From contig JAAYRL010000024.1 in assembly GCA_012518795.1 (NCBI GenBank), forward strand, positions 1 to 64,000: DNA of 64,000 nucleotides, in the 5' to 3' direction. Of this stretch, positions 10,750-52,910 are shown piece by piece. A model generated the notes under the pieces. It did no database searches. It saw only the letters and a program-made list of their open reading frames with translations, and was not told where the DNA came from. The position numbers were made by a program, and so were the translations under genes. The first letter of the stretch is position 1, and each line of letters begins with the position of its first letter. This DNA is from Clostridiaceae bacterium. Lineage in GTDB: Bacteria > Bacillota > Clostridia > Saccharofermentanales > DTU023.

Positions 10750-10765
10750 AAATACACCCCTTTGA

Positions 10766-10970
10766 CTTTGAAAAATAAATTCTATGAACAATTTTCTTTA
10801 TACTTTAAAAAAAAATTCTATGAACAACTTTCTTTATACTTTAAAAAATAAATTCTATGAACAACTTTCTTTATACTTTAAAAAATAAATTCTATGAACA
10901 ACTTTCTTATACTTTGACTAAATAATTTCTATGAACTACTTTCTTATACTTTGACTAAATTATCACTATG
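10766..10970. repeat. 36-37 bp tandem repeat between proB and proA, five copies plus a partial
   Basis: Units begin at 10766, 10803, 10839, 10876 and 10912, with a core like TTCTATGAACAACTTTCTT. The last unit covers the proB stop codon (10944-10946) and a partial sixth copy lies inside the proB 3' end. Read along proB, every unit repeats AAAGTATAA, which is the Lys-Val-stop end of proB. The two units next to proB keep TTTAGTC; the distal three have drifted to TTTTTTA. This looks like stepwise duplication of the proB tail. Confidence 0.9.
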
Positions 10971-15661: not shown

Positions 15662-15735
15662 AGATGAAGAAAAGCGATCAGATCTCTTTTTAATTTTTAA
15701 GTTAACAGAACAAGGACAACAGGGAGGAGGCATAA

Positions 15736-17667: not shown

Positions 17668-18855
17668 ATGTCCAAAGACGACAATAATTTATTGAAAAAA
17701 CAATTGGTAAATTCTGGCAAACAAGATAAAAACAAGGAAAATCAGCAAACTAAATCCGGACAAGGCGGTTTTAAAGCATTCCTCAAAAAACAGAATATAG
17801 AAATTACTTTTAAAAGATATGCTTTAGATGCGATGGGTGCAATGGCACTCGGTTTATTCGCTTCACTTTTAATCGGCACAATTGTCAATACAATTGCAGG
17901 TTTAATCGGTGTTGAAACTTCTGTCGGTTCAATATTATCTCAAATGGGCAGTTTTGCAGCACGTGCAACCGGACCGGCAATGGCAATCGCAATCGGGTAT
18001 TCATTAAAAGCCCCGCCTTTAGTATTGTTTACTCTAACCGGAGTCGGCTTGGCAGCAAATGAATTAGCAGGTGCAGGCGGTCCTTTAGCAGTTTTTATCA
18101 TAGCTTTATTTGCTGCTGAAATCGGCAAACTTGTTTCAAAAACAACTCCGGTTGATATTCTTGTAACTCCGTTAGTTACCTTGACTGTAGGTGTAGGACT
18201 TAGTTTATGGTGGGCTCCGGCTATCGGTGCAGCTGCAAACAGTATAGGTTCTGCCATCATCTGGGCAACTGATATACAACCGTTTTTTATGGGTATATTT
18301 GTTTCCGTAGTGATGGGAATTGTACTGACCTTGCCGATCAGTTCAGCTGCAATTGCTGCTGCTTTCGGTTTGGTTGGTTTAGCGGGTGGAGCTGCCCATG
18401 CCGGTTGTTGTGCCCAAATGGTCGGTTTTGCTGTAATGTCCTATAAAGAAAATAAAACAGGCGGACTAATAGCCCAAGGACTTGGTACATCAATGCTGCA
18501 AATGCCAAATATAATGCGCAATCCGAAGATCTGGCTACCACCGATTCTGGCTTCAGCAATTACCGGTCCGATGGCAACAGTCTTATTTAAACTTGAGATG
18601 AATGGCCCTCCGATATCTTCCGGTATGGGAACCTCCGGTATGGTCGGCCCGATCGGTGTAATAACCGGTTGGCTTAATCCTTCCGAAGCAGCTTTAAGTC
18701 ATGGCGCAGTAGCTTTGGAAGCCAGTTTAATGGACTATATCAATTTACTGTTGATCAGTATTATTTTACCGGCAATTTTAACATATTTAATTGCGATACC
18801 TTTCCGCAAAATGAACTGGATCAAAGAGGATGATCTAAAATTAAATCTCGGCTGA
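17668..18855 (+). CDS. PTS EIIC-like membrane permease (PTS_EIIC_2 type)
   Basis: This is a polytopic membrane protein with about ten hydrophobic segments after a charged 45-residue N-terminus. Runs such as MGSFAARATGPAMAIAIGYSLKAPPLV, GGAAHAGCCAQMVGFAVMSYKEN and GPPISSGMGTSGMVGPIG fit the stand-alone PTS_EIIC_2 family, which shares the EIIC fold but lacks IIA and IIB domains. No PTS partner genes are nearby, so phosphotransfer-coupled uptake is doubtful and the substrate is unknown. It follows the ABC exporter pair by 105 bp. Its 3' end faces the first 56-bp repeat array. Confidence 0.75.
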   Translation: MSKDDNNLLKKQLVNSGKQDKNKENQQTKSGQGGFKAFLKKQNIEITFKRYALDAMGAMALGLFASLLIGTIVNTIAGLIGVETSVGSILSQMGSFAARATGPAMAIAIGYSLKAPPLVLFTLTGVGLAANELAGAGGPLAVFIIALFAAEIGKLVSKTTPVDILVTPLVTLTVGVGLSLWWAPAIGAAANSIGSAIIWATDIQPFFMGIFVSVVMGIVLTLPISSAAIAAAFGLVGLAGGAAHAGCCAQMVGFAVMSYKENKTGGLIAQGLGTSMLQMPNIMRNPKIWLPPILASAITGPMATVLFKLEMNGPPISSGMGTSGMVGPIGVITGWLNPSEAALSHGAVALEASLMDYINLLLISIILPAILTYLIAIPFRKMNWIKEDDLKLNLG

Positions 18856-18859
18856 TTTT

Positions 18860-18962
18860 TTGGAAGATAGATTCACATAATTTGAAAGCTAGATTCTCAT
18901 AATTTGAAAGCTAGATTGCACACTATTTAAAAGCTAGATTGCACATAACTTGAAAGATAGAT
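18860..18962. repeat. Degenerate 21-24 bp repeats leading into the 56-bp array
   Basis: About four to five imperfect copies of TTTGAAAGCTAGATTCTCATAA-like units run from the end of the EIIC-like gene to the array. One copy carries a solo left arm, TGCACACTATTTAA, at 18917-18930. That is 46 bp before the first full unit, half of the array period. Confidence 0.65.
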
Positions 18963-19384
18963 TGCACACTATTTAAGCCTATACCGGAGAAATCCAGACT
19001 AACCTTAAAAAGTGTGCACAGCCAGCCCATAATAGCCGGCTTTTTCAAAGGACATGCACACTATTTAAGCCTGTCCCGCCGGATTTCCGGACAACCTTAG
19101 AAAGTGTGCAAATTTAACTCCAGAAAGTCGATTTTTTAAAGGACATGCACACTATTTAAGCCTATACCGGAGAAATCCAGACTAACCTTAAAAAGTGTGC
19201 ACAGCCATCCCATAATAGCCGGCTTTTTCAAAGAACATGCACACTATTTAAGCCTGTCCCGCCGGATTTCCGGACAACCTTAGAAAGTGTGCAAATTTAA
19301 CTCCGGAAAGTCGGTTTTTTAAAAAACATGCACACTATTTAAGCCTCTACAGTGGATTTTCAGTATAAGCTTTAAAATTGTGCA
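18963..19384. repeat. Array 1 of the 56-bp palindromic repeat, five units at 91-92 bp phase
   Basis: Units lie at 18963-19018, 19055-19110, 19146-19201, 19238-19293 and 19329-19384, each exactly 56 bp. Each starts TGCACACTATTTAAG; the first four end CTTARAAAGTGTGCA, giving a terminal stem of up to 14 of 15 pairs. Two interior types alternate (A, B, A, B, then a diverged fifth). Units 1 and 3 are identical, as are 2 and 4. The 35-36 bp linkers also alternate but contain mismatches. The array fills the gap between two convergent gene ends. Confidence 0.93.
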
Positions 19385-19434
19385 ATCCAAAGTGTGCAAT
19401 CAAAAATGTGTAATCCAATGAGTAAAATATGATT

Positions 19435-20160
19435 TTACAACTTATCAATTAACATCTCATTTATTTTCTTGTAGAGAATTTCAGAGATTAATTTATGTCC
19501 TTCATCATTCGGATGTATTCCATCTTCACACATATATCTTTCAGGATTGATTTCTTCCAAAAATCTTTGTCGTACATCGATATATAGTGCACCGGTTTCA
19601 ATTGCTAATTCAGTTAATACAGAATTGTAACTTTCATGCCATTGGTAGATTCTTTTGGTTGAGCCACCTAAAAAAGTCAAAAGGTTCTCTTTATTCAAAC
19701 CCTTACTGAAACAATTGAAGTATCGATCAGGATCAAGAGGCGGCAAATTAATAATTACCGGAATAATATTTTTTTCCTGCAAATTATTAATCAACTCTTT
19801 GTATAATTCAAAATACGAATCTAAAGGAACGTTAGGTTGATGATTAAAACTCGGTTGTTGAGCAACATCTGCCCAAAAATAGTCACAATCGTTTCCGCCG
19901 AATCCTAAAAAAGCAATACCGGGTTCAACGATTTCTTCTTTTTTTCGTTGAAATATGGTCAAACCTTTTTTTATAGTAGCACCAAATGAAGCAAAATTTT
20001 TAACTTTAGCTTTGAATTTATCGGCTAAAATATTGATAAAGTTTTGTTTGCTGAGTTCATAGCGATTATCGACAGAATTATAAACAATTCCTTTGCATAC
20101 GGAATCGCCGAAAATATACCAATTTGATAAATAACGGTTGTCTAGAACTAATTGTGTCAA
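19435..20160 (-). CDS. SGNH/GDSL-family hydrolase
   Basis: This is a serine esterase or acetylhydrolase of the SGNH fold. Block I is YIFGDSVCKG with the nucleophile Ser20, block III GFGGNDCDYFW, and block V EDGIHPNDEGHKL with the Asp and His of the triad. No signal peptide is visible, so it is probably cytoplasmic. The ORF track starts at 20190, but a strong AAGGAGGG lies inside that extension at 20168-20175, 7 bp before a TTG at 20160. TTG is therefore the likely start, giving 241 aa. The substrate is unknown. Confidence 0.85.
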   Translation of the reverse strand: MTQLVLDNRYLSNWYIFGDSVCKGIVYNSVDNRYELSKQNFINILADKFKAKVKNFASFGATIKKGLTIFQRKKEEIVEPGIAFLGFGGNDCDYFWADVAQQPSFNHQPNVPLDSYFELYKELINNLQEKNIIPVIINLPPLDPDRYFNCFSKGLNKENLLTFLGGSTKRIYQWHESYNSVLTELAIETGALYIDVRQRFLEEINPERYMCEDGIHPNDEGHKLISEILYKKINEMLIDKL

Positions 20161-50490: not shown

Positions 50491-50819
50491 TGCACACTAT
50501 TTAAGCTTGTACCGGAGAAATCCAGTCTAACCTTGAAAAGTGTGCATTTTTATATGAAAAAGCCTGATTTTCAAGTTATTATGCACACTATTTAAGCTTG
50601 TACCTTGGATATTCAGGATAACCTTGAAAAGTGTGCATTTTTATATGAAAAAGCCTAAATTTCAAGTTGTTATGCACACTATTTAAGGTTGAACCCTAGA
50701 TTTACAGAATAAACTTAAAAAGTGTGCATTTTTATATGGAAAAGCCTGATTTTCAAGTTATTATGCACACTATTTAAGGTTGAACACTAGATTTACAGAA
50801 TAAACTTAAAAAGTGTGCA
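50491..50819. repeat. Array 2 of the 56-bp palindromic repeat, four units at exactly 91 bp phase
   Basis: Units lie at 50491-50546, 50582-50637, 50673-50728 and 50764-50819, each 56 bp with 35-bp linkers. All start TGCACACTATTTAAG, as in array 1, and end AAAAGTGTGCA. The first unit shares the interior ACCGGAGAAATCCAG with the A type of array 1; units 3 and 4 share a different interior. Linkers (TTTTTATATGAAAAAGCCTG...) differ from those of array 1 but keep the length. Confidence 0.93.
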
Positions 50820-50892: not shown

Positions 50893-50921
50893 TTGACAAA
50901 TCTTATTTAATCGCTTAAAAT
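50893..50921 (+). promoter_or_regulatory. Promoter of the fur-family gene
   Basis: A consensus TTGACA at 50893-50898 and TAAAAT at 50916-50921 with a 17-bp spacer. The first Fur-type operator begins at the last base of the -10, so repressor binding would block transcription. Confidence 0.85.
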
Positions 50922-50959
50922 GAAAACCGTTTTCAAATTCAATTTGAGAATGGTTTTCA
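50921..50959. promoter_or_regulatory. Two Fur-family (Zur-like) 7-1-7 operators
   Basis: TGAAAAC-C-GTTTTCA (50921-50935) is a perfect 7-1-7 dyad. TGAGAAT-G-GTTTTCA (50945-50959) is a second, weaker one 24 bp on. Together they make a larger dyad with 12-bp outer arms AAAATGAAAACC/GGTTTTCATTTT. The 7-1-7 layout is the hallmark of Fur/Zur/PerR boxes. Confidence 0.8.
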
Positions 50960-51000
50960 TTTTGTTTAAATTTATATTATTAAGGATTAGGAATAAAAGA

Positions 51001-51432
51001 ATGACTGGTGGATACAATACTCAACAAAAAACCGAATTAATATCCTATTTAGAGGCAATGAAAGGTAAACATGTCACGGTAAACCAAATAATCAATTACT
51101 TTTCTGAAATTGGTGTAAAAATCGGAGTTGCCACAATTTATCGTCAATTAAATAAATTGGTAGATTCCGGTCATGTAAAAAAGTATTTTATTGATGAAAT
51201 ATCAGGTTCGTGTTTTGAATTTGTAGGTGAAAATCATGAAGTCACAATAAGTGATTATTTTCATCTAAAATGTGAAATTTGTGATCAGTTAATTCACTTT
51301 GAATGTAAGGAAGTAAGGGAACTCCAAAATCATGTCAAAAGTGAGCATGGTTTTATCATTGACCCGGTAAAGACTGTTTTTTATGGAATTTGTAAAAATT
51401 GTTTTGAAACTAAAGTCAAAACATCTAAATAA
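51001..51432 (+). CDS. Fur-family metalloregulator, probable Zur
   Basis: The winged helix (HVTVNQIINYFSEIGVKIGVATIYRQLNKLVDSGHVKKY) is followed by a dimer domain with the structural zinc pairs CEIC and CKNC and a His/Glu-rich sensing segment (DYFHLKC, HFECKEV). At 143 aa from the ATG at 51001 it has the family length. The 27 extra residues in the ORF track are the translated operator. The znuABC genes downstream and the 7-1-7 boxes upstream make zinc sensing and self-repression likely; iron or peroxide sensing is less likely. Confidence 0.88.
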   Translation: MTGGYNTQQKTELISYLEAMKGKHVTVNQIINYFSEIGVKIGVATIYRQLNKLVDSGHVKKYFIDEISGSCFEFVGENHEVTISDYFHLKCEICDQLIHFECKEVRELQNHVKSEHGFIIDPVKTVFYGICKNCFETKVKTSK

Positions 51433-51454
51433 AATATTTTGATACTAAAGATAA

Positions 51455-51586
51455 GATAGCTAATTTAAAATAGAAAGATTTAGATTAAGATAGCTAATTT
51501 AAAATAGAAAGATTTAGATTAAGATAGCCAATTTAAAATAGAAAGATTTAGATTAAGATATCCAATTTAAAATAGAAAGATTTAAA
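51455..51586. repeat. 34-bp tandem repeat upstream of znuA, four copies
   Basis: Units start at 51455, 51489, 51523 and 51557, with a core like GATAGCTAATTTAAAATAGAAAGATTTAGATTAA. They are nearly identical. The last unit provides the purine-rich AGAAAGA just before the znuA ATG. Confidence 0.9.
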
Positions 51587-51587
51587 T

Positions 51588-52910
51588 ATGAAAAAAACAA
51601 TTAAAATTATTATTAGTTTGATGCTGGTTCTAACAGTTATTTCAAGTTGTAGAAATAATAATGATACTGCGGCTGACAATGATAAAACAAGAGTGGAAGA
51701 TTCTATTGGAGAAAAGATTGAAAATAATGTAACAGAAAATAATGAAGAAAATACCGAAGCAGAGATAGATAACACAGAAGATATTGATCTTAAAGTAAAT
51801 AATAATGACAAAGCTGAAAATAATAATGTTAAATCAGAGGAAAAATTATCAATTGTAACTACTATTTTTCCTCAATATGATTTTACAAAACAAATAGTTG
51901 GCGATAAAGCAGATGTAAAAATGCTTTTGAAACCCGGTGCGGAGAGCCATTCTTATGAGCCGACACCCCAAGATATTAAAACCATTCAGTCCAGTGATTT
52001 GTTTATCTATACAGGTGGTGAAAATGATACTTGGATCGAGGGGATAATTGAGTCAATGGGTGATAATGCACCTGACACAATGAAATTAATAGATATGGTT
52101 AATACAGTTGAGGAAGAAATTGTGGAAGGAATGCAACATGGACATGCAGAAGACCATGACCACACAGACGATAGTGAACACATACATGCAGAAGATCTTG
52201 ACCACGTACTAGATGATGAACATGCAGAAGACCATGATTACACAGACGATGGTAAACATATGCATGAAGAAGATCATGATCACACAGACGATGATGAACA
52301 TATGCATGAAGATGATCATAAGCATGCAGATGATAATAACGAAGATGAAGATGAAGATAAACATGAACATGAACATGTTCATGAGTTAGATGAACACGTT
52401 TGGACATCGCCAATTAATGCGATAAAAATTGTTGAACAGATTACGGACGTTTTGAGCGAAAAAGATCCGGATAATGCAGAAATTTATTCAACAAACAGCG
52501 AGGCTTATATTGAGCAATTAAATTATCTGGATCAGCAATTTAAGGATGTTGTCGAACATGGGAAGCGTAAAGTTATATTGTTTGGTGATCGTTTTCCGTT
52601 CCGTTATTTTGCAGAAGAATATGATTTAGATTATTATGCAGCATTTACAGGATGTTCAACTGATACTGAGGCTAGTGCTGCAACGGTCGCATTTTTGATA
52701 GATAAAGTGAACGAACTTCAATTGCCCGTAGTATTTTCGATTGAGCTTTCCAATGAAAAAATTGCCGATTCAATTGTAGAGGCAACTGCTGCAGAAAAAT
52801 TAACTTTTCATTCAATCCATAATTTGTCAGTTGAAGAACTCGAAGCTAATGAAACATATATTTCGTTGATGGAAAAAAACATTGAAGTTTTAGAAAAAGC
52901 TCTGAATTGA
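51588..52910 (+). CDS. znuA: Zinc ABC transporter substrate-binding lipoprotein with very long His/Asp-rich loop
   Basis: This lipoprotein (lipobox ISSC, Cys21) binds zinc outside the cell and hands it to ZnuBC. Cluster A-I family features are IVTTIFPQYDFTKQIVGDKADVKMLLKPGAESHSYEPTPQDIKTIQSSDLF, the metal His in DEHVWTSP, FGDRFPFRYFAEEYDL and the late SIELSNEKIADSIV. Between the first and second ligands a His/Asp/Glu loop of about 85 residues (184-270) holds imperfect DHTDDGEHMHAED repeats. Such loops occur in ZnuA but are usually shorter. The start lacks a strong ribosome site. It is likely Zur-controlled. Confidence 0.93.
   Translation: MKKTIKIIISLMLVLTVISSCRNNNDTAADNDKTRVEDSIGEKIENNVTENNEENTEAEIDNTEDIDLKVNNNDKAENNNVKSEEKLSIVTTIFPQYDFTKQIVGDKADVKMLLKPGAESHSYEPTPQDIKTIQSSDLFIYTGGENDTWIEGIIESMGDNAPDTMKLIDMVNTVEEEIVEGMQHGHAEDHDHTDDSEHIHAEDLDHVLDDEHAEDHDYTDDGKHMHEEDHDHTDDDEHMHEDDHKHADDNNEDEDEDKHEHEHVHELDEHVWTSPINAIKIVEQITDVLSEKDPDNAEIYSTNSEAYIEQLNYLDQQFKDVVEHGKRKVILFGDRFPFRYFAEEYDLDYYAAFTGCSTDTEASAATVAFLIDKVNELQLPVVFSIELSNEKIADSIVEATAAEKLTFHSIHNLSVEELEANETYISLMEKNIEVLEKALN

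Follow-up and report, generated by a model that had tools for sequence, protein, structure and literature searches.

An array of 56-bp palindromes belongs to a gene-less repeat dispersed between the genes of a few related biogas-digester bacteria

The palindrome array and its family within the genome

What occupies the gap between two convergent genes with five palindromes set at an almost fixed distance? This question is raised by positions 18963-19384 of the stretch of 64,000 nucleotides from a Clostridiaceae bacterium analysed here (hereafter the window, which belongs to genome G000). A sequence-only reading of this DNA had described five 56-bp units with a period of 91-92 bp, and its description of the layout held in every respect. 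The array is composed of five imperfect palindromes whose starts (18963, 19055, 19146, 19238, and 19329) lie 92, 91, 92, and 91 bp apart. All five start with the same 15-mer (TGCACACTATTTAAG), and the first four share an A-A mismatch at pair 9. On the forward strand, unit 1 (18963-19018; subtype CCTATACCGG..., also matched by the covariance model) is followed by linker 1 (19019-19054; 36 bp, family majority sequence TGTTCAGCCCAGAAAAGCCGGTTTTATCAAAGAACA), unit 2 (19055-19110; subtype CCTGTCCCGCC...), linker 2 (19111-19145; 35 bp), unit 3 (19146-19201), linker 3 (19202-19237; 36 bp, differing from linker 1 at two positions), unit 4 (19238-19293), linker 4 (19294-19328; 35 bp, differing from linker 2 at four positions), and unit 5 (19329-19384), each unit being 56 bp long. 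As had been proposed, comparison of the window units revealed that unit 3 is identical to unit 1 and unit 4 to unit 2. The roughly six differences previously counted between the two 183-bp copies of the array are exactly six, and all of them fall in linkers (p = 0.0034 if spread evenly over the 183 bp).

The right arm of unit 5 is diverged (CTTTAAAATTGTGCA) and is followed by ATCCAA, a motif that also follows the single unit of the sister genome G005 at this locus. Fragments of the half-sites are tandemly repeated, in degenerate form, at both edges of the array. At the left edge, a degenerate tandem repeat with a period of about 23 bp (18859-18968, forward strand) carries half-sites (GATTGCACACTATTTAA) and reaches into the first bases of unit 1. 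At the right edge, the right half-site recurs in tandem every 14 bp (19375-19418, forward strand; AAAGTGTGCAATCC-like), with the last bases of unit 5 included. The array does lie between convergent gene ends, namely those of a PTS_EIIC_2 (PF13303) membrane protein gene (17668-18855, forward strand) and of a gene of the GDSL lipase family (PF13472; 19435-20190, reverse strand, stop at 19435).

The arm is not restricted to this gap. Across the 64-kb window, 21 arm matches with up to three mismatches were found against 2.8 expected, a number reached in 0 of 100 shuffles. A second array (50491-50819, forward strand) is formed by four 56-bp units starting at 50491, 50582, 50673, and 50764 with 35-bp linkers, and is placed between an 828-aa ORF and a 170-aa ORF. 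An ORF for a Fur-like regulator lies about 100 bp downstream of this second array and is followed by a histidine-rich ZnuA-like ORF (50920-52910), both assigned by visual inspection of the translation. The window also holds tandem repeats of a 37-bp unit in five copies (10765-10952) and of a 34-bp unit in four copies (51452-51607).

The search for further copies in the genome and its relatives that had been suggested was carried out and returned, in the genome itself, about 40 arrays with near-constant spacing and conserved arms. Genome-wide, the 15-bp arm with up to two mismatches occurred 165 times on the forward and 168 times on the reverse strand, and the reversed control gave 4 and 0 matches. 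In total, the genome contains roughly 165 units, distributed over about 40 intergenic arrays and nearly always combining the 56-bp unit with a linker of 36 (or 35) bp. Unit and linker counts were based on 39 stretches around array sites of the genome together with stretches from sister species. In this set, 214 of 229 units measured exactly 56 bp, and 51 loci had linkers of 36 bp, compared with 12 that had linkers of 35 bp; lengths of 15, 25, 40, or 46 bp were rare. Most linkers share a common consensus, indicating that the repeated module is about 92 bp long. For the same reason a CRISPR array was rejected: linkers within an array are alike and follow the genome-wide consensus, and are not unique spacers. 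Orientations based on the linker and on the A at position 9 agree, and the units run head-to-tail (one truncated locus at a contig end was set aside). Beyond the module, almost no homology was detected between the flanks of different arrays. Six units are identical between different G000 arrays; window units 1 and 3, for example, recur unchanged in C14. Neither the arm sequence nor the sequence family was found in the literature searched.

Distribution and change of copy number at orthologous loci

Covariance-model searches among 188 genomes of the order confined the unit to one genus, in which it is strong in three of seven species. It is abundant in G000 and G001 and reaches about 15 units in G005; G003 and G004 displayed at most three weak, diverged matches each, and G002, G006, and the 29 further genera of the order that were sampled had no match in these searches. 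Since the model counts saturate at the candidates scored and include both strands of each palindrome, unit numbers were taken from the arm search and from our own extraction. No copies of the family were found in phages, plasmids, or IMG/VR. The named records with arrays are the Clostridiaceae MAGs AS21ysBPME_111 and AS08sgBPME_347; a survey of MAGs from biogas reactors (PMC7038595) names its genomes by the same scheme. Overall, the repeat to which the window array belongs is short and gene-less, has about 40 copies, and has spread and multiplied between the genes of a small number of related bacteria from biogas digesters. Arrays in a 'Bacteroidales' MAG (AS23ysBPME_368; L114, L118, and L119) most likely reflect bin contamination, since a protein on the array contig displayed 94% identity to G004, 89% to G005, and at most 43% elsewhere, and the H+-pyrophosphatase of that bin had matches at 42% only.

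Other dispersed repeats were also observed in these genomes. One of them, about 36 bp long and flanked by two ABC transporter genes in the window (15678-15714), recurs with 89-100% identity at many places in G003, G001, and G005 and matched no Rfam family. Short intergenic stretches at L120:9705-9926, L120:18652-18842, and L121:8144-8233 have many matches in sister genomes and probably represent other repeat families.

Comparison of orthologous loci revealed that arrays change in place by whole 92-bp modules. The clearest measure is given by an array of four units in G001 (C88) and its single-unit orthologue in G005 (C62), which differ by exactly 276 bp, or 3 × 92, between collinear flanks that are 85-89% identical over about 1 kb on each side. 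Likewise, three units in G001 C126 correspond to one in G005 C60, and three in G001 C59 to two in G005 C6. The window locus itself contains five units in G000, about 2.5 in G001, one in G005, and none in G003 or G004. The array at C9:6245 is absent from G001, G003, G004, and G005, and further G000 arrays occupy loci that are empty in sister species. At L167:302-351 (G005 C44), a diverged unit carries a perfect inner palindrome (AAGGTTATGTATAC/GTATACATAACCTT), and G000 has a five-unit array at that locus. Empty loci exist, and at the compared loci neither a clean target-site duplication nor an exact insertion boundary was readable because the intergenic DNA is too diverged. We also looked for arrays with a variable 5' and a fixed 3' end, which would point to a mechanism of the retro- or rolling-circle type; the pattern obtained was not clear-cut.

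These comparisons also bear on whether the arrays are artefacts of assembling genomes from metagenomes. Many contigs do end within arrays, which speaks for such an origin. However, the same arrays occur in separately binned species assemblies (JAAYNE and DUPV), and collinear orthologous flanks enclose arrays of unequal length, which makes an artefact extremely unlikely.

Conserved half-sites, gene context, and possible host roles

Within arrays, differences per site amounted to 0.04 in the arms, 0.20 in the interior of the palindrome, and 0.19 in the linker. Interior and linker did not differ in divergence (p = 0.95), whereas arms and linker did (p = 3.5e-6). The earlier suggestion that the palindromes are under selection and the linkers are not therefore stands for the 15-bp arms and fails for the interior. 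The retention of the arms while the interior diverges at the rate of the linker suggests that sequence-specific half-sites are what is kept. Among 155 distinct units, pairs beyond the arms were about as frequent as column composition predicts. The alternation of subtypes, in turn, is no general trait, being present in 3 of 19 long arrays: units two apart are more alike than neighbours clearly in the window array and in L052, and more weakly in L116.

The non-modal linkers of 15, 25, and 46 bp form, with the modal 36 bp, steps of about 10.5 bp, that is, they lie about one DNA turn apart. Five of six non-modal cases fall on these steps, with 40 bp as the exception (p ~ 0.005, from a crude uniform null in which shared descent is not taken into account). 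We consider helical phasing of the linkers to be a lead and not a result.

Phased inverted half-sites could serve the host by binding a cooperative nucleoid-associated, partition, or supercoiling protein, in the way that BIME-2 is associated with gyrase or RIB/RIP with IHF. Such a function would fit half-sites that are kept as sequence without covariation, a near-constant spacing whose rare variants fall on steps of about 10.5 bp, and a position near gene ends. Nevertheless, the family is missing from G002 and G006 and almost missing from G003 and G004, all of the same genus, its copy number is labile at orthologous loci, and it has no known binder, so that we judge this role unlikely.

Among the 48 arrays with both neighbouring genes called, 29 lie between genes of the same direction, 17 between convergent genes, and 2 between divergent genes. 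Divergent gaps are thus rarer for arrays than among background gaps (2 of 48 versus 12 of 63, p = 0.02; an approximate value, as ORF calls were mechanical). The median distance from an array was 73 bp to a 3' gene end and 182 bp to a gene start. The strand of the units agreed with that of the genes in 8 of 14 tandem contexts, indicating no fixed orientation, and with the G-rich strand in 23 of 39 cases, with no replication- or transcription-strand bias.

Closeness to gene 3' ends would also be expected of a structured RNA element, a transcription terminator, or an mRNA stabiliser acting in 3' UTRs, and when the units were folded each could form a hairpin (z of about -3 to -6 with DNA parameters). 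Yet among 40 diverse units, compensatory changes did not exceed those of shuffles (3 two-sided pairs versus 4.0), and 90.0% of cells were pairing compared with 90.2% in the shuffles. Rfam returned no credible family, either at the gathering threshold or permissively on the array, and no intrinsic terminator (a GC-rich hairpin with a T run) was detected in the window array. The structured RNA array raised by the sequence-only reading thus found no support, and the lack of covariation, of a fixed orientation relative to genes, and of a terminator makes an RNA role very unlikely.

Likeness to known repeats and a proposed mobile origin

REPs and BIMEs are short intergenic palindromes present in many copies, clustered with linkers, lineage-specific, and variable in copy number (PMC2817692, PMC3733652). 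The family described here displays the same traits: it has many extragenic copies, is clustered by linkers, is specific to its lineage, and varies in copy number. The comparison with BIMEs made at the outset is hence apt as an analogy, the family being dispersed, intergenic, palindromic, modular, and mostly near gene 3' ends. In contrast to REPs, defined by a unit of 20-40 bp with a GTAG or CGTC tag at one end (PMC3733652), its units measure 56 bp and carry no such tag in the columns around the foot of the stem; they are arranged head-to-tail, whereas orientation alternates in BIME clusters. The enzymes tied to REPs and BIMEs are the Y1/RAYT transposases (PMC2817692). Searches for these (PF01797) gave 0 matches in all seven genomes of the genus, with 5 of 14 control genomes positive, a comparison to be read knowing that MAGs often lose repeats. 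The lack of both a RAYT/Y1 match and a GTAG/CGTC tag keeps the family out of the REP/BIME class: it works like a BIME without meeting the definition of one.

MITEs such as RUP and Correia/NEMIS are short, gene-less, dispersed, non-autonomous elements with terminal inverted repeats. The family shares its shortness, lack of genes, dispersal, and terminal inverted repeats with these elements, but it forms long tandem arrays, and no transposon or parent IS with its ends was recognised within the fetched array loci. BOX elements of Streptococcus pneumoniae are modules that lie between genes, vary in copy number, and contain a part repeated in tandem, in the order boxA-boxB(n)-boxC. These traits recur here, with a single type of 92-bp module in place of the boxA-boxB(n)-boxC order; the two are set apart by description. 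The imperfect palindromes, conserved mismatches, and head-to-tail arrays also recall integron attC sites, which could point to folded single-strand sites of a tyrosine recombinase in an array without cassettes. We find this highly improbable, as the 36-bp linkers contain no genes and the attC core-site pattern was not recognised by eye.

One unit of G000 is interrupted by an IS110-family element encoding an RNA-guided transposase (NF033542, PF02371, PF01548; L032:3408-4556, corresponding to G000 C3:17907-19055, reverse strand), inserted at C3:17.9-19.1 kb between ...CCAACCT and TAAATAGTG. What had appeared as a cargo of about 2 kb between two arrays is this insertion. Relatives of its protein are encoded by G006 (44%) and G005 (29%). 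Members of the IS110/IS1111 type are known to target REP palindromes (PMC1525189, PMC11208160); the position of this element inside a palindromic unit is similar, as a single insertion from which targeting is not established.

Based on these findings, we postulate that the array is probably a copy of a genus-restricted, non-autonomous family of mobile palindromic repeats, BIME- or MITE-like in behaviour and comparable to a small DNA parasite. This reading is favoured by about 165 units at about 40 loci with unrelated flanks and a patchy presence within one genus, by unit numbers that differ by whole modules at orthologous loci, by identical units in different arrays, by the absence of the C9:6245 array from four sister genomes, by arms that outlast the divergence of interior and linker, and by the scarcity of arrays in divergent gaps with 3' gene ends being nearer (73 versus 182 bp). 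The module joins a linker of 35-36 bp to a 56-bp dyad, in which two inverted half-sites (TGCACANNWTTTAAGNTTR...) enclose a variable centre, and it occurs both singly and in head-to-tail arrays. It expands module by module, identical units are present at several loci, and its half-sites are conserved. From this we infer a mobilising enzyme and its insertion chemistry: the half-sites would serve as recognition sites for a protein acting in trans. This would most likely be a transposase or recombinase, which would seed new loci and may assist tandem amplification, and slippage or unequal recombination would expand and homogenise the arrays. For the arms, the protein-binding option of the sequence-only reading is in this way part of the postulate. 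Against the postulate stands that no cognate transposase for the half-sites was found. The pattern can be explained without assuming a host-adaptive role.

The near-constant spacing of 56 + 36 bp despite sequence divergence also counts against the postulate, as it hints at a constraint on architecture that would not be required of a simple selfish repeat. This spacing could be accounted for by a new class of mobile dyad element, in which a putative non-RAYT protein would assemble on the array and copy or move it while keeping the helical phase of 56-bp dyads and linkers of 15, 25, 36, or 46 bp; we regard this as a rather speculative and improbable option.

Palindromic repeats as short and abundant as these are known best from Proteobacteria and a small number of further phyla, and RAYT transposases usually accompany them. 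In the present case, a clostridial genus harbours a comparable, expanding palindrome family in which no RAYT was found, whose units run head-to-tail with unusually fixed spacing, and which has sister species without the family. The origin and the mobiliser of such repeats thereby become testable by comparing closely related genomes.
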